DNA of 64,000 nt from positions 1 to 64,000 of the forward strand of contig NZ_CP036278.1 in assembly GCF_007748035.1 (NCBI RefSeq). Direction: 5' to 3'. Positions 16,546-61,090 of the stretch are shown piece by piece (positions within the stretch are counted from its first letter, which is position 1; each line of letters begins with the position of its first letter). Origin of the DNA: Aeoliella mucimassa (GTDB lineage Bacteria; Planctomycetota; Planctomycetia; Pirellulales; Lacipirellulaceae). The translations under genes and the position numbers were made by a program. A model generated the notes under the pieces. That model was not told where the DNA came from, ran no database searches, and saw only the letters and a list, made by a program, of their open reading frames with translations.

Positions 16546-16870
16546 GGGATAGTTTCCCAGCACCGACTCGATAGATTCCCAAGACCGACGATAGTTTCCC
16601 ACTGCTGGGCAAATAGATTCCCAATTTACCCACCGATGGGAAAATTGAATCTTCGCCCACTCTATAAAACCAGTGGTTTTCGCTCCCGAATAGATTCCCA
16701 TTTCCCAAAACGCATCGAGTGGGAATCTATTTTCCCGCTGGGAATCAATCGCAAGTCGTTTGTTAGCAATGAGTTGCATCAACATCTCTGCGATAGTTGC
16801 CCAAAATAGATTCCCACCCATGGGAAACTATTTTGAGATGGGAGTTAGGGGTTGGGAGTTGGAAGTTAGA
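16546..16870 (+). repeat. Composite repeat copy A, block 1 (phased TGGGAATCTATT array)
   Basis: This block iterates the 12-bp word AATAGATTCCCA (reverse of TGGGAATCTATT) and close variants. Starts at 16548, 16570, 16590 and 16612 are spaced 22, 20 and 22 bp; then an inverted pair at 16689 (AATAGATTCCCA) and 16720 (TGGGAATCTATT), further variants at 16739 and 16805, and an inverted partner at 16821. A separate small palindrome AAACCA-G-TGGTTT lies near 16666-16680. The same block occurs at 36530 and, inverted, at 60771-61090. In copy A the array is followed directly by the IS110-type element, which separates it from block 2 at about 18076. Confidence 0.8.
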
Positions 16871-16896
16871 AAGGATAGTAGCGACTGTCTTAAAGT

Positions 16897-17850
16897 TCAA
16901 GTCTCTTTGGAGCATTTCCAGTCCGTTTTTGTTTTGATCATGGCATTGAGTATCAGCAGTAGTTTTCGCATGCAGGCGGTGAGAGCGGTCATCTTGGCTT
17001 TGCCTCGCTGCAGAAGTTGCTGGTAGTGTTCGCGGATAATCGGGTTGTGCTGGGTGGCCACAAGAGTGGCCATGTAGAGTCCCTGACGCACCGCCGCTCG
17101 ACCGCCGCCAATCATACGCTTGCCACGCAAGGTTCCGCTGTCGCGGTTGATCGGTGCCAGCCCTGCCAAGCGTGCCACTTCGCGACGATTGAGAGTGCCC
17201 AACTCCGGCATATCGGCGAGCAAGGCCGCCGCCGTCGTCGTTCCTACGCCAGGCACCGTGACTAGCAGCGACGAGCGTTCTTGAAACTGAGGATCGGCTT
17301 TGATGAGCTGTTGAATCTGTTGGTCGAGCTGCTCCAGTTGTCGTTGGTAGAAGTCGATCGCTTCTTCGATCGACTGACGCACCTGCTCATCTCGCTGCGT
17401 GCCTCGCCGATTCTTTTCCCGTGTCAGAGCATCACTCACCTGCTGACGACGAGTTCGGAGGGAGCGGAGTTTTTGCTCGTTTTCCGAGGGTTTTTGGGTT
17501 TCTTTGGGCTGCATCAACACGGCATAGCGGGCGATCACCAGCGCGTCGAGGCGATCGGTCTTGGCGAGCTGACCTTGCGCGCGGGCGAAGTCGCGAATCT
17601 GACGTGGATTGACGACACTCACCGCAATCCCTTGCTCGCGAAGGAAGTCGACTAGCATGCGTTCACAACCTCCCGTGGCTTCCAGGCAGGCGTGGGTCAC
17701 CTGATGCTGCACTAACAACTGCCGAAGTTGCTGGCATCCTTCTTGACCGGCAGACCAATGATGCATCTGCGGTTGCCCCGCAACGACGATGTCCCAGTGG
17801 TATTTGGAAACATCGATCCCAATCCAAGTACTTTGCAAATGGTTTTCCAT
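16897..17850 (-). CDS. IS110-family transposase (DEDD recombinase)
   Basis: A 317-residue bridge-RNA-guided recombinase. Seen: the RuvC-like catalytic segment GIDVSKYHWD at residue 12, CLEATGGCE near 55-63, KTDRLDALVIARY near 97, a coiled middle (RQQVSDALTREKNRRG, then a Glu/Gln-rich helix), and the C-terminal Tnp20-type domain with VPGVGTTTAAALLADMP and LAGLAPINRDSGTLRGKRM, where the Ser of DSG is the expected nucleophile. The length and all motifs look intact, so the element could be active. It lies on the minus strand inside repeat copy A. It is unrelated to the IS903 and ISKra4 elements elsewhere in the window. Confidence 0.95.
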   Translation of the reverse strand: MENHLQSTWIGIDVSKYHWDIVVAGQPQMHHWSAGQEGCQQLRQLLVQHQVTHACLEATGGCERMLVDFLREQGIAVSVVNPRQIRDFARAQGQLAKTDRLDALVIARYAVLMQPKETQKPSENEQKLRSLRTRRQQVSDALTREKNRRGTQRDEQVRQSIEEAIDFYQRQLEQLDQQIQQLIKADPQFQERSSLLVTVPGVGTTTAAALLADMPELGTLNRREVARLAGLAPINRDSGTLRGKRMIGGGRAAVRQGLYMATLVATQHNPIIREHYQQLLQRGKAKMTALTACMRKLLLILNAMIKTKTDWKCSKET

Positions 17851-18062
17851 CGATTACCCTTCCTTGCATATGCGAGCTTGTTAAAACAGCTCTGGCGACT
17901 GTTCGGGCTAATGCGACAGGCGGCCGGCCGGCGATCCAGCTACGAGATCGGTCTCGTGAGGACCGAGGGTGGGACGATCTACCGGCGGCCGCCGTCTTCT
18001 ACTTCGTTCGCTACGCTCACTCCGCAGAAGACGGCGAAATCGTTGATAGCACCACCTCTGCA
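17851..18062 (-). ncRNA. Candidate IS110 bridge RNA region
   Basis: IS110-family recombinases use a structured bridge RNA encoded in their non-coding end. Upstream of the transposase start lies about 210 bases rich in inverted repeats: a perfect 10-bp stem, GCCGTCTTCT at 17991-18000 and AGAAGACGGC at 18026-18035, enclosing a 25-base loop, and a second paired region around TCGGTC/GACCGA near 17950-17965. Large loops on stems are what target-binding and donor-binding loops look like. I cannot fold the RNA or match its loops to the flanks here, so the call rests on position and visible stems. Confidence 0.4.
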
Positions 18063-18075
18063 AGATACAAGGGTG

Positions 18076-18310
18076 GGTCCAGGAGCTTCCAGCGACGCAG
18101 CCCCACCACCCGCGTTACCCACACGCGCAGCAGTGAACGCCCACGCAACCGAACATTCGCCTGCGCGTCGATACTGACATTCATTGGAATTCAAAAACTG
18201 CTAAACCATTTCACCCTCCAACAACGGACCACGGACAACAAGCAACGGACCAAAGACACCTGTCCATTAGAACACCATAGGTGGCCAATTCCCAGCGAAA
18301 ACTGGAAAGA
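18076..18310 (+). repeat. Composite repeat copy A, block 2
   Basis: This segment matches block 2 of the copies at 36.84-37.12 kb and 60.42-60.72 kb (inverted). Shared words: GAGCTTCCAGCGAC, a CACACGCGCAGCAG(T/C)GAACGCC stretch leading to TTCGCCTGCGCGTCG, and a hairpin-bearing end CACCTGTCCATTAGAACACC followed by AGGTGGCCAATT and CAGCGAAAA. Between them a CAACGGACCACGGACAAC-like low-complexity run is shared with the 60.4-kb copy but replaced at 36.9 kb. No gene is seen. Confidence 0.65.
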
Positions 18311-26459: not shown

Positions 26460-26507
26460 CTCCGTAAAAACTAACGTGGAATGGAACCACGTACCTTTTT
26501 TACGGAG
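26460..26507 (+). promoter_or_regulatory. Hairpin sequestering the transposase ribosome-binding site
   Basis: CTCCGTAAAAA at 26460-26470 pairs with TTTTTACGGAG at 26497-26507, and an inner ACGTGG/CCACGT (26474-26479 with 26487-26492) adds a second stem. The distal arm contains the GGAG Shine-Dalgarno of the transposase start at 26515. On a transcript entering from outside, the structure would hide the ribosome-binding site, as in IS10 and IS50; on a transcript starting inside it could be lost. Confidence 0.5.
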
Positions 26508-26514
26508 ATCGAAC

Positions 26515-27456
26515 ATGGCTACGAAAGAAAAACGAACCTACAAAGTCACGAACTGGAAGGAGTATAACAAGTCGCTCATCGAGCGTGGAAACATCACTAT
26601 TTGGTTTAGCGACGAGGCGTTGGAGAACTGGGAACATCCTAACGACCAGACAAAAGTCGGTCGCCCTTTTGTCTTCAGCGATACGGCGATCGAGTGCTTG
26701 CTGACGATTCGCGAACTGCTGAAACTTCCCTATCGGCAGACTGAGGGATTCGGCCGCTCGCTGGTGGCGATGTTGGGCGTCGAGGCAGCGATTCCCAATT
26801 ATTCTTCGCTCGCCAAGCGAGCCAGCAAGCTGAATGTTTCGCTCGATATCGCTAACAAGAGGGGCGACATCGATATCGTGGTGGATAGCACCGGCATGAA
26901 AGTGTTTGGCGAGGGCGAATGGAAGATGCGGACGCATGGCAAGTCGAAGCGGCGGACATGGCGGAAGCTGCATTTGTCGGTGAATCCTGACACCCGCGAG
27001 ATTGTGGCGGAGATTTTGACCGAGAACAGTTGCCACGATGCCGATGCGGTTCCCGAAATGCTGGAGCAGGTGGAGCAGCCCGTAAAAAAGTTTCACGGCG
27101 ACGGTAGTTACGACAAGTGGAAGGTTTATGAAGGGCTGGAATCCGAAGGCATTGAGCCGGTGATTCCGCCGCAGCACAACGCCAAGATCAAACAACATGG
27201 CAACTCTGCGGAGGAGCCTTTGCCCCGGGACGAGGCAATTCGTCAGATTCGACGCAAGGGGCGTAGGAGTTGGAAAGAGGAAGTGGGCTATCATCGTAGA
27301 AGCTTGGCGGAAACGACCATGTACCGAGTGAAACAAAGCTTTGGGAGCCATCTCAAAAACCGAGTATTCGAAAACCAACAAACGGAAGCCCGCTTGCGCT
27401 GTAAAATCATCAATCAATTCACCCAACTCGGGCTTCCACAGTTCGAGTGGAGTTAG
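26515..27456 (+). CDS. IS903-type transposase (DDE, IS5 family)
   Basis: A 313-residue transposase closely following IS903: YKVTNWKEYNKSLIERGN at the N-terminus, VVDSTGMKVFGEGEWK with the first catalytic Asp, TWRKLHLSV, FHGDGSYD with the second Asp, and SLAETTMYRVKQSFG with the catalytic Glu. Length matches the family (about 300-330). ATG 26515 is chosen over 26476 because GGAG lies 7 bases upstream. The protein is intact, so the element may still be active. A hairpin covers the Shine-Dalgarno. Confidence 0.97.
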   Translation: MATKEKRTYKVTNWKEYNKSLIERGNITIWFSDEALENWEHPNDQTKVGRPFVFSDTAIECLLTIRELLKLPYRQTEGFGRSLVAMLGVEAAIPNYSSLAKRASKLNVSLDIANKRGDIDIVVDSTGMKVFGEGEWKMRTHGKSKRRTWRKLHLSVNPDTREIVAEILTENSCHDADAVPEMLEQVEQPVKKFHGDGSYDKWKVYEGLESEGIEPVIPPQHNAKIKQHGNSAEEPLPRDEAIRQIRRKGRRSWKEEVGYHRRSLAETTMYRVKQSFGSHLKNRVFENQQTEARLRCKIINQFTQLGLPQFEWS

Positions 27457-27536
27457 TCAACAAGGCCCTGTAAAATCATCAATCAATTCACCCAACTCGG
27501 GCTTCCACAGTTCGAGTGGAGTTAGTCAACAAGGCC
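27399..27536 (+). repeat. Tandem 69-bp duplication of the IS right end
   Basis: Bases 27399-27467 are repeated at 27468-27536. The unit contains the last 58 bases of the transposase gene, its stop codon, and the terminal inverted repeat. The outer copy abuts the target duplication at 27537. Confidence 0.95.
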
Positions 27537-36529: not shown

Positions 36530-37115
36530 TCGCGAATAGATTCCCAATTTACCCACCGATGGGAAAATTGAATCTCCGCCCACGCTACAAAACCAGCGGT
36601 TTTCGACCTCGAATAGATTCCCATTTCCCAAAACGCATCGAGTGGGAATCTATTCTCACGGCGTCTGGCGGTCGCAAGTCGTTTGTTAGCAATGAGTTGC
36701 ATCAACACCTCCGCCGAAAGTGCCCAAAATAGATTCCCATGGGTGGGAAAGTATTTTTGGGAGGAGTTAGGAAACAGGATTCGGGGGACAGGGGAGTTTG
36801 GGATTTATGATTTCTGAGTTGCGGATGTGATCTTGAAGGAGCTTCCAGCGACTGAAAGATCTAGCCTACCGCTTACAGCCTAAAGCCCACAGCTTTACCC
36901 ACACGCGCAGCAGCGAACGCCCACGCAAGCAACCCTTCGCCTGCGCGTCGCTAGTATTCTGGCATTCGGAAAAGCATCACATCGCAATCACCTTCCATCA
37001 CTAAAAAGCCAACAGCCAACAGCCGATAGCTGAAAGCCGACAGCCAAATACACCTGTCCATTAGAACACCACAGGTGGCCAATTTCCAGCGAAAAATGCG
37101 AGATCGGAGAATCCG
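36530..37115 (+). repeat. Composite repeat copy B
   Basis: The only copy with both blocks uninterrupted. Block 1: AATAGATTCCCA at 36535-36546, an inverted pair AATAGATTCCCA (36612-36623) and TGGGAATCTATT (36643-36654), and a second facing pair near 36728 and 36744; the tandem array seen in A and C is reduced to one unit here. Block 2 (about 36837-37113) has GAGCTTCCAGCGACTG, AGCCTACCGCTTACAGCC, CACACGCGCAGCAGCGAAC and CACCTGTCCATTAGAACACC. The end matches the hairpin region at 60.42 kb with AGATCGGAGAATCC. Confidence 0.8.
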
Positions 37116-58904: not shown

Positions 58905-60414
58905 GTGTAAGCGTCACAATTGTGGGCAGTTTGCTTAAGCTGCGTACTTTTGCCAGTAGTCTTCCCAGCAGCCGCGTTGGCTGAGGTAGAGGGCGCGGAG
59001 GTGGCACACGGCGTTTGAGCCGTGCTGGCTCCAGCGCATGCCGCTTTGCTTCAAGCGCCCCGCCACGACGGTTTTGCACGCGCTCTCGACCGGGCCGCTG
59101 CCGATCTGCCAGCCGTGGGCCACGTAGCGGGGGTAGTTCATCTTGTGCTGGTGGTTTTGGAAGTATCGCAGGCAGGTCGTATAAGCTTCGCGTTGAGCGG
59201 AAGACCAGTTGGTCTTCTCCAGCGACTGCAACATCCACACGATGCTCAAGCCTCCTTGGTGCTTCAGCCGGTGACACCACGATGCCAACTGAGCAGTGCG
59301 ATGCTCCTCGTCGTCCGGATAGAGCGACTGGCTTAATTCCACCAGGTACTCACTCGCGTGCCAGAAGTCGAGGATCCGCTCCGCACGCGGGAAGTGCACT
59401 CGCAAGAACTCTTCTAAACCAGCACCGCCATCCGAGATCGCGATCTGCTGCTCTGCCTCGTCCCACCCAACCGCGGCGGCTTGGCGACGCAGTTGCCGCC
59501 CAAGTTCCGGGAGTTCATAAAACCCCGATAAATACCGCACCGAATGCGGGTCGGGCGAGCGAGCATCCTGCTCGCTGTTTATGTTGTAAATCATGCCGAC
59601 GTACGCCATGCGGCCCTCGGCCTGCGCGCCACGAGGGCCTTGCTGTCGCACGCCTGTGGCGTCGAGACTCACGTACGCGCACGTCTTGCCATGCGCGTCG
59701 CGTTGCCAGGCGAACGGCTCTGTGTTGCCAAACGTCTCGCCTGCGGCGAGTAACGTTTGGAGACGCTCGCCAGCGTCTTCGGTGACTCGCTCGACGGTCG
59801 ACTCGCTGACCTTCAGTCCACACAGTTTACGAAGTGTCACTTCGCTCGACTGAGCGAAGCTCGTTTGCACGCCGGTGATGCTCACCACTTGGGCCGCGGC
59901 CGGACTAAACTTTCGCTTGCCGAGTCCCAACGTTTTGTCCCGCGGAAACAATCCGTGACGGCACCGGCGGCAGTGGTAGTAGTGACGCCTCACTTGCAGT
60001 GGGCCGAGCAGGCTATCGACCCACCGCGAGCGAACGTTCACGCAGCGGGCGTCGCCATTGCAGGTCGGGCAGACGCAGCTAGCTTTCTCGTACCCGTCCC
60101 TTTTTTTGTCGCTCGTTGGCGACTGTTTCCAAGGCCTTGGCTCCGAGTGCATGCACTCGGTCGCGGAGGTCGAACTCCGTTTGCCCAAACAGATTCGAGT
60201 CGTCCTTGTCGTGCAACAACTTGGCCATGCGACGAATGTCATCGTCGCAAGCCTCCTTTAGAAGCTCGTAAGTCCGCTGCTCCTCTTCGTTTAGCTCGAT
60301 TGGCTCACGCGGCGAATAGGCCATGATCATCTCCTGGCGTGTGGCAAAATAGGAAGAGTCACCCGGCACAATATATTAGAACCGATTTCATGCCTACTTT
60401 CGAGACGCTTACAC
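58905..60414 (-). mobile_element. ISKra4-family insertion sequence
   Basis: The ends GTGTAAGCGTC at 58905-58915 and GACGCTTACAC at 60404-60414 are inverted repeats whose similarity extends imperfectly to about 24 bases. A 9-bp target duplication CGGATTCTC flanks it at 58896-58904 and 60415-60423. Size is 1510 bp, with one transposase gene split into two frames. The target was the loop of a terminator hairpin. Confidence 0.87.
58935..60324 (-). pseudogene. ISKra4-type transposase in two frames (frameshift at an A7 run)
   Basis: The N-terminal part from ATG 60324 (AGGAG 6 bases upstream) encodes MAYSPREPIELNEEEQRTY through FGQTEFDLRDRVHALGAKALETVANERQ and stops near 60079. Coding continues in the +1 frame as GYEKASCVCPTCNGDARC, with zinc-binding Cys pairs, CAYVSLDATGVR, ERILDFWHASEYLVEL and the family signature HGWQIGSGPVESACK. 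The switch falls at a run of seven A at 60101-60107 (minus sense). Deleting one A restores a single gene of about 460 residues. This could be a decayed copy, a programmed or slippage-dependent frameshift, or a base-call error. Confidence 0.85.
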
Positions 60415-60423
60415 CGGATTCTC

Positions 60424-61090
60424 CGATCTAGCATTTTTCGCTGGAAATTGGCCACCTGTGGTGTTCTAATGAATAGGTTGTTTGTTGTCCGTTGTTCGTA
60501 GTCCGTTGTTGGAGGGCGGAATGATGTAACCGAGTGAATATGAAATTCACTGAAACCATCGACCACGCAAGCGCGCTGTAGGAGCGGTCTCTGACCGCGA
60601 TAGCCCTTGTGTTGGGTTCGCTGCTGCGCGGTTAGTAAAGCGATAGGCTTTAGGCTGTAAGCGGTAGGCTAGATCTTTCAGTCGCTGGAAGCTCCCTCAA
60701 GATGACATCCGCTTACCACTATTCCGCATTCCGAAATCCCCAATCCGAAATCACCTAACTCCCAACTCAAAATAGTTTCCCACCGATGGGAATCTATTTT
60801 GGGCAACTATCGTGGAGGTGTTGATGCAACTTGTTGTTGTCAAACGACTTGCGATTGATTCCCACCGCGAAAATAGATTCCCATCGGATGCGTTTTGGGA
60901 AATGGGAATCTATTCGAGGTCGAAAACCACTGGTTCTGTAGAGTGTGTGTGGATTCAATTTTCCCAACGGTGGGTAAATTGGGAACCTATTGCTGTGTCG
61001 TGGGAATCTATTTGGGAGCGGTGGGAATCTATCCATCGCGGTGGGAATCGATTGGCTCGAGGGTGGGAATCTATCTCGATTGGTGTCGGG
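60424..61090 (-). repeat. Composite repeat copy C (inverted)
   Basis: Block 2 lies at 60424-60720 (CGATCTAGCATTTTTCGC, GGCCACCTGTGGTGTTCTAA, GGCTTTAGGCTGTAAGC, CAGTCGCTGGAAGCTCC) and block 1 at 60771-61090, reversed relative to copies A and B. The tandem array has five units whose TGGGAA starts lie at 60980, 61001, 61022, 61042 and 61064, spaced 21, 21, 20 and 22 bp. Inverted pairs occur at 60771/60787 and 60872/60903. The copy is bounded by an ISKra4-type element at 60414. Confidence 0.8.

Follow-up and report, generated by a model that had tools for sequence, protein, structure and literature searches.

Bacterial interspersed repeats are usually defined by their sequence, and BOX elements are modular. 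The described kinds that come closest to the family reported here are the BIME/REPIN, BOX, and STAR repeats, and we file it as a member of none of them. In the accounts cited, REP, REPIN, and BIME sequences with their RAYT enzymes appear as high-copy intergenic palindromes of mosaic make-up that are targets of insertion sequences (ISs) and form subfamilies within one genome (PMC3116915, PMC3733652), all of which holds for the present family as well, and it shares with REPs and REPINs the paired palindromes at a fixed distance that make up the unit. In contrast, the unit here is 350–650 bp long with a conserved 3′ block, and the word of its palindromes changes while the scaffold stays. For the positions of REPs, no deviation from random is described above 200 bp, i.e., beyond the paired unit (PMC3116915), whereas the elements studied here are over-dispersed at the 10-kb scale. 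Pneumococcal BOX, RUP, and SPRITE elements are, as PMC3049150 presents them, likewise interspersed, species-limited, probably parasitic, and structured, but in the present case the scaffold recurs in a second genus with a different word, and the copies are evenly spaced. Compared with BOX by description, the family also has fixed outer modules and inner modules that vary in number and type. Staphylococcal STAR elements resemble it as intergenic direct repeats with spacers that occupy different loci in each species, whereas a fixed-distance palindrome scaffold and a conserved 3′ block are not described for them in the abstract of PMC3532100. The family works like a non-autonomous repeat of the REPIN/BOX type, but lacks two features that define REPs, the tag and the linked RAYT, and one that defines MITEs. 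A GTAG/CGTC tag at the palindrome end is absent, the words beginning, as judged by eye, with ATAG-ATTCCCA, GTTTTGTCC, CTTTTGTCCC, or GTTTTGCCCC; a RAYT gene flanked by the same repeat is not the rule; and terminal inverted repeats are absent, the 5′ word array and the 3′ block being unrelated and the inverted repeats lying within the word block.

The window analysed here, 64,000 nucleotides in length, consists of bases 1–64,000 of the single 6,608,792-base contig of its genome (G000), and the element at 36.5 kb is one of three copies of the composite repeat within it. This copy is intact, lies on the plus strand at 36,530–37,105, and comprises an upstream word W0 (TAGATTCCCA; 36,537–36,546), the word palindrome H1 with 13-bp arms and a 19-nt loop (36,611–36,655), a conserved linker with hairpin H2 (CGCAAGTC...GTTGCA; 36,673–36,706), and a second word palindrome, H3 (36,726–36,758), 116 bp after H1 from word to word. 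These are followed on the same strand by a degenerate 7-bp array in an exchangeable slot (36,760–36,824), the REP-like palindrome module B (GTGATCTTGAAGGAGCTTCCAGCGACTGAAAGATCT; 36,825–36,862), the scaffold motif GCGCAGCAGC, which is common to the family of the second genus (36,905–36,914), a second 7-bp array found by TRF, of AGCCAAC type here and of ACGGACA type in other copies (37,007–37,047), and the conserved 3′ block (CACCTGTCCATTAGAACACC....GGTGGCCAATTTCCAGCGAAAA; 37,044–37,098; profile score 48.5 bits). The second copy, also on the plus strand, has its word block at 16,550–16,840 (H1 16,691–16,729, H3 from 16,807) and its modules and 3′ block at 18,070–18,305 (48.6 bits), separated by an IS110-family IS on the minus strand with approximate boundaries 16,882–18,069 and an ORF at 16,897–17,850. 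The third copy is read on the minus strand (60,432–61,073; 45.8 bits), with the 3′ block at 60,432–60,483, H3 at 60,773–60,796, H1 at 60,874–60,912, and the word array extending to 61,073. The first-pass annotation had described two blocks that travel together in order at 36.5 kb, are split by an IS in the second copy and are inverted in the third, and all of this is borne out: the blocks follow one another at 36,537–37,098, the IS interrupts the copy at 16,550–18,305, and the inverted copy keeps the block order. Chance similarity, which would have undone that description, does not account for the repeats, as TAGATTCCCA matches 15 times in the window while shuffled sequences average 0.08 matches and none of 100 reaches 15. 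A DNA uptake sequence is a word scattered over the genome, genes included; here all 15 matches lie inside the three copies. Nor are the copies parts of genes, since only two of the 84 with a measurable 5′ end overlap a predicted gene by more than 150 bp.

The family to which the window copies belong counts about 150 intergenic elements in the 6.6-Mb genome, so that the earlier count of three is right for the window and an underestimate for the whole. With up to three mismatches, the end motif CACCTGTCCATTAGAACACC gives 72 + 41 genome matches by strand against 1 + 1 for the reversed control, and a 57-position profile of the 3′ block (consensus CATTAGANCRC....GGTGGCC) finds at least 150 places. 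A word block is present within 800 bases upstream in 92 of 103 fetched copies; in several of the remaining 11, an IS splits the copy. From 5′ to 3′ in element orientation, the parts are ordered as word array, H1, linker with H2, H3, 7-bp array, one or two REP-like palindromes, GCGCAGCAGC, exchangeable modules with a second 7-bp array, and 3′ block. The 3′ end is sharp and the 5′ end ragged; strong copy pairs end together (2531384/5717469, 95.9% identity over 657 bp; 671531/4928915, 90.1% over 555 bp), and some copies show a further homologous stretch of about 450 bp downstream (18 extended-looking copies aligned). An empty site was found for none of the copies. Copies are unequally distributed over the strands, 94 to 56 among the best 150 places and 99 to 57 by pattern (p 0.001), and the bias keeps its direction over the whole contig; on contig C1 of the second genus, the split is 34 to 48.

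The word block is the most rigid part of the element. Statistics for the word, H1, and H3 refer to young copies only (104 and 103 of 114), i.e., those whose palindromes carry TAGATTCCCA/TGGGAATCTA. In 98 of these 104 copies the words of H1 and H3 are 116 bp apart, the loop of H1 measures 19 nt in 99 and that of H3 4 nt in 103, and at least one extra word of the array, in which AATAGATTCCCA recurs at 20–22-bp steps, is found in 99. The arms of H1 pair at 10/10 positions in 96 copies; those of H3 pair at 9/10 in 63, 8/10 in 35, 10/10 in five, and 7/10 in one, its 3′ arm being often decayed. When 103 copies are aligned, the majority base has a mean share of 0.998 in the H1 word and 0.994 in its complement, compared with 0.936 in the loop, 0.890 in the 25 bases upstream, and 0.807 in the linker. 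The filter favored intact words, but since it let through one or two mismatches per word, it biases this ranking only in part. The linker motif CGCAAGTCGTTTG...GTTGCATCAAC is able to form hairpin H2, with perfect hairpins in L255 (10 bp) and, as judged by eye, near G000:2,920,300. A possible stem within the 3′ block (CACCTGT/ACAGGTG) failed to hold across copies, and the 3′ block profile R1 was therefore built without structure. Helical phasing of the 116-bp distance was also considered and dropped, because in the second genus the distance is mostly 117–124 bp.

Between these fixed parts the interior is exchangeable. The first-pass annotation had noticed that stretches between the shared words are replaced wholesale, and this replacement can now be understood as reassortment of alternative 7-bp arrays and palindromes in fixed positions. 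Slots for the first 7-bp array, the palindromes, and the 3′ modules were typed in 91 of 103 copies, the other 12 having no scorable modules, and in the 89 copies left after two ambiguous ones had been set aside, no significant association between slot types is seen (permutation p 0.07, 0.59, and 0.85), so that modules reassort almost independently. Relatives also have 7-bp arrays of a similar kind that stand by themselves in intergenic positions. In L123 (G021), L125 (G005), and other relatives, such lone intergenic arrays have a changing word (AGCCGAC; CAGTGGT turning into TGTTGGC). The heptanucleotide arrays reported for Beggiatoaceae, Nostoc, and Xanthomonas also lie between genes and resemble the exchangeable slots as far as they are described in PMC4679880 and PMC4692102, whereas here the arrays are parts inside a larger, mobile-looking unit.

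At first sight the family seems to be confined to one species. BLASTN, which the first-pass annotation had suggested as a check, by itself pointed to such a restriction: in the whole-element search, 13 of 59 genomes match, the window's own included, and the other 12 do so by short pieces alone, mostly the AGCCAAC array. The exact word hairpin likewise occurs 135 times in G000 and not once in 58 other genomes. Searching with only the 3′ block (CATTAGANCACCNNNNGTGGCCA, at most three mismatches) overturned this view, as it yields 99 + 57 matches in G000 (control 5 + 3) and 25 + 18 in G018 (control 1 + 3), a member of another genus of the window's family, with other genomes near control. About 150 copies exist in G018 (147 places among the best 150 scored candidates), arranged as palindrome, linker (often CGTAAGTGCTTT), palindrome, CGCGCAGCAG, and 3′ block, with the word GTTTTGTCC/GGACAAAAC and in a subset CTTTTGTCCC/GGGACAAAAG. 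Words are present at both H1 and H3 (up to one mismatch each) in 35 of 40 loci from G018 and G005, most of them located via the 3′ block alone; five loci failed the word filter, and L208 and L209 are the same copy. In 33 of the 35 rows that pass, H1 and H3 lie 116–127 bp apart, and the other two, at 70 and 83, look like mis-assigned H3. Alignment A2 contains 31 of the 35 (L203, L208, L218, and L224 left out). R1 is a sequence-only profile of the 3′ block made from alignment A1, with 51 sequences from 24 of 41 representatives and 27 G018 loci. Over 43 family genomes it finds at least 130 places in G000, at least 130 in G018, 26 in G005, 16 in G003, and 0–2 in the rest, and of 296 genomes of the order, the six with a match at E 1e-4 or better all belong to the window's family. 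By eye, from one or few copies each, the words are GTTTTGCCCC and CCAATTGTCC in G003, which is of the window's genus, TTTTGTCCCC and TTTTGTCGC in G001, and GTTTTGTCC and GACTTTTGTCCC in G005.

Counting 9-mers that recur inverted within 24 nt brings out the same words. Over a contiguous 464 kb of G000, i.e., the window plus 400 kb, the commonest are ATAGATTCC and TAGATTCCC (13 each), which are the word itself, and in 400 contiguous kb of G018 it is GTTTTGTCC (7); another strong inverted word in G000, AGACAAAAG, was discarded as it sits inside an IS gene. In these 864 kb, R1 finds 30 places at E 0.1 or better. Four of seven low-scoring R1 matches in G000 possess the scaffold with the word GTTTTGCCCCC, indicating an older word subfamily in this genome, while the last of the seven is probably due to chance. 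The 3′ arm of the older subfamily is GGGGGCTTTATT or GGGGGCAATTC, and its complement AATAAAGCCCCCA resembles the younger AATAGATTCCCA, though a derivation is no more than suggested. Among the best 150 places in G000, 124 are young (114 direct, eight with the word block further upstream, two with one word), 14 are old (ten clear, four with one word), and 12 have no word, about six of these being cut by ISs. A close flanking gene (75% or more identical) is common to a relative's copy and a fetched G000 element locus in two of 46 cases, weaker paralogue-like matches not being counted, which by a rough estimate is near chance for positional orthology; this comparison covered about 846 kb of G000, one 464-kb stretch and the regions around copies. 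The flanking gene of L255 shows 80.5% amino acid identity in opposite orientation, that of L220 74.7% in the same orientation. A strict pattern search found no match in 84,980 species genomes, a collection from which the window's own or near records may be absent; a looser pattern gave a single match, in a Balneolia MAG, that is probably due to chance, and viral contigs yielded none. We found no published account in the open-licence literature, and the family is real, species-spanning, and apparently undescribed. At G000:C1:1745000-1749800 (L336), a tRNA-like sequence is followed by the 3′ block without any word, in two copies 3 kb apart.

Copies keep apart from one another in both genera. The coefficient of variation (CV) of gaps between the best 150 G000 places is 0.731, compared with 0.989 for random placement, and only nine gaps are shorter than 10 kb where 30.3 are expected; none of 5000 simulations reaches either value. 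The best-scoring 131 places have three such gaps against 23.4 expected. When the 124 young copies are compared with random placement on strand-switch junctions, using the junction map of the 464-kb stretch tiled over the genome, two short gaps contrast with 20.4 expected (minimum eight in 2000 simulations). Within the 464-kb stretch itself, random placement on its 87 real strand-switch junctions would give the 13 young copies 2.9 gaps below 10 kb, and they have none (P 0.021); for all 19 copies, two such gaps compare with 6.1 expected (P 0.011). The IS5-like IS of the same stretch, in contrast, has three against 1.8 and thus shows no exclusion. On contig C1 of G018, 82 places show three short gaps against 14.5 expected (0/5000) and a CV of 0.714 (P 0.0008). 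The longest gap is shorter than random in G000 (P 0.012 for the best 150 places, 0.0034 for the best 131), but not unusual on contig C1 of G018 (P 0.11). Old copies also avoid young ones: one of 14 lies within 10 kb of a young copy where 5.0 are expected (P 0.023), which rules out random placement of old copies relative to young.

With regard to genes, which were predicted by a simple hexamer score, 46 of 84 copies have both neighbors predicted in the fetched stretch, 15 being convergent, 16 divergent, and 15 co-directional. Strand switches are preferred (31/46 copies against 87/264 junctions of the 464-kb stretch; Fisher p 1.4e-5, and 3e-4 for junctions of at least 60 bp only). Upstream genes read towards the element in 36 of 74 cases, and 38 of 74 copies lie in front of genes; copy starts lie near 60 bp from gene ends in the median (36 genes), closer than they lie to gene starts, where the median is near 270 bp (38 genes).

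A dedicated enzyme was sought among RAYT-type and other transposases, as the first-pass annotation had proposed, and this lead did not hold. There are 13 matches to Y1 transposases in G000 and 26 in G001, G003, G005, and G018, and the 3′ block occurs near three of 30 distinct Y1 loci scanned in these five genomes (26 of relatives, four of G000), once each at L145, L280, and L265, so that a linked transposase is rejected as a rule and no mobilizing enzyme linked to or co-inherited with the element was found at these loci. At G000:C1:1322400-1323500 (L145, L169), an old-word element has beside it a RAYT-like gene of 201 aa, flanked on either side by REP-like palindromes. Inserts inside copies were considered as internal genes of the element, and this was rejected as well: they are independent ISs, namely two kinds of IS110, IS200, and IS5-like, the label IS200 resting on Pfam PF01797 and those of IS110 and IS5 being what we presume from the proteins. 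Four of six full G000 copies of the IS200-family IS (TnpA 162 aa) lie directly behind TGGGAATCTAT inside elements (G000:C1 6526681, 2675460, 4148888, and 4299627; L140, L142, L143, and L144), which marks the word as a place where that IS lands; the remaining two follow TCTAT/TCTTT at other places. Relatives of the IS110-family IS of the window are present in at least four further copies (G000:C1 3396048, 4664656, 4691729, and 6274850), a second IS110-type IS interrupts copies 1661766 and 2607032, and the IS5-like IS interrupts some copies. Insertion of ISs into REPs, as described in PMC1525189, offers a parallel. The IS5-like IS of the window (ORF 26,476–27,456) adjoins or sits inside several elements, and a perfect 69-bp tandem duplication is found at the end of its transposase gene (27,399–27,536).

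We hold with about even confidence that the family is non-autonomous intergenic mobile DNA whose word is read by a putative trans-acting factor and whose copies are subject to local exclusion. The first-pass annotation had spoken of a non-autonomous mobile or regulatory module without a transposase of its own, which suits about 150 dispersed intergenic copies with no gene inside or regularly adjoining, but it had not seen how many copies there are, that their geometry is fixed and their spacing even, or that the word differs between species. As the word is kept in young copies and exchanged between lineages while the scaffold stays, a word-reading factor seems the simplest cause. The word, i.e., the array and the two palindromes at a fixed distance, would be the recognition site of such a factor, encoded outside the element, and the 3′ block would serve as a second, slowly evolving recognition site and as a fixed end. 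Dispersed whole units, subfamilies of different age, and different neighbors in each genus argue for copying to new sites, and a nearest-neighbor identity between copies of only about 84% suggests that this copying is old or slow. New copies would arise from the currently recognized word subfamily and settle between genes, for the most part at strand-switch junctions, while the roughly 10 kb around a copy already in place would be closed to them. If the specificity of the factor shifted, a new word subfamily might replace the old one, giving rise to species dialects on one scaffold, and in the interior 7-bp arrays and REP-like palindromes could be freely swapped by recombination, the interior also acting as a landing site for ISs. 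The near absence of close pairs, unlike the distribution of an IS in the same genome, points to exclusion or to a function for which sites have to lie apart.

The gap distribution would be the same under exclusion and under selected spacing, and the copies could instead be chromosome-organizing sites, where the word is recognized by a nucleoid or segregation protein, one site per about 45–50 kb is maintained by selection at transcription-unit boundaries, and the word co-evolves with the protein. Over-dispersion in both genera (random CV about 0.98), the short longest gap in G000, the strand-switch preference, and the distance that old copies keep from young ones would all agree with this possibility, which we take seriously but consider doubtful, given that simple exclusion accounts for the gaps equally well, that the longest-gap test is not significant in G018, that no more than 16 copies are detectable in G003 and 26 in G005, and that most family members have none. 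The similar totals of 150 and 147 in the two genera would also speak for it, but are not to be pressed, as both were taken among the best 150 scored candidates and are partly set by that choice. Stated more narrowly, and more tentatively, there would be a spaced array of about one site per 45–50 kb at transcription-unit boundaries, in which a word-specific DNA-binding protein and the word co-evolve, so that whole genomes switch dialect while the two word palindromes, about 116–124 bp apart, and the 3′ block stay. PRDM9 is a fast-evolving recognition system, and spaced co-evolving sites, if real, would be a bacterial parallel to systems of this kind. It is unlikely, in our judgment, that the elements are passive mosaic repeats of BIME or BOX type, spread by recombination with occasional mobilization by unrelated IS enzymes and no dedicated factor, their words being kept alike by hairpin correction and gene conversion. 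Template switching can correct palindrome arms, and near-independent reassortment of modules and the several IS types inserted in copies agree with this idea, but in the same copies the word and the 116-bp distance are far better conserved than neighboring positions, and the spacing is non-random whereas the IS5-like IS lacks exclusion. Very improbable is a structured RNA or tandem transcription terminator at gene ends: although hairpins H1, H2, and H3 exist, the G000 palindromes end in TTTT, and copies often start just past a stop codon, half of the copies precede genes, decay of the 3′ arm of H3 is frequent, and no Rfam family matches the window at gathering score. An intrinsic terminator would show a hairpin with a T run in all members, and in the G018 word family the palindrome GTTTTGTCC/GGACAAAAC has no T run after it in this orientation.

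What is surprising about the family are its dialects and its over-dispersion: one recognition word gives way to another on a persisting scaffold, and in both genera copies are seldom found within about 10 kb of each other. These two properties make it possible to test whether the elements are parasites with target immunity or sites of a chromosomal function, and to ask how a genome-wide word is replaced. The words of the two genera are natural baits for finding the putative protein. Downstream of the third copy, at 58,935–60,242 of the window, lies a 1.26-kb segment that includes most of a 435-aa ORF and is 96.8% identical to a segment behind copy 3446108 (G000:C1:3446108).
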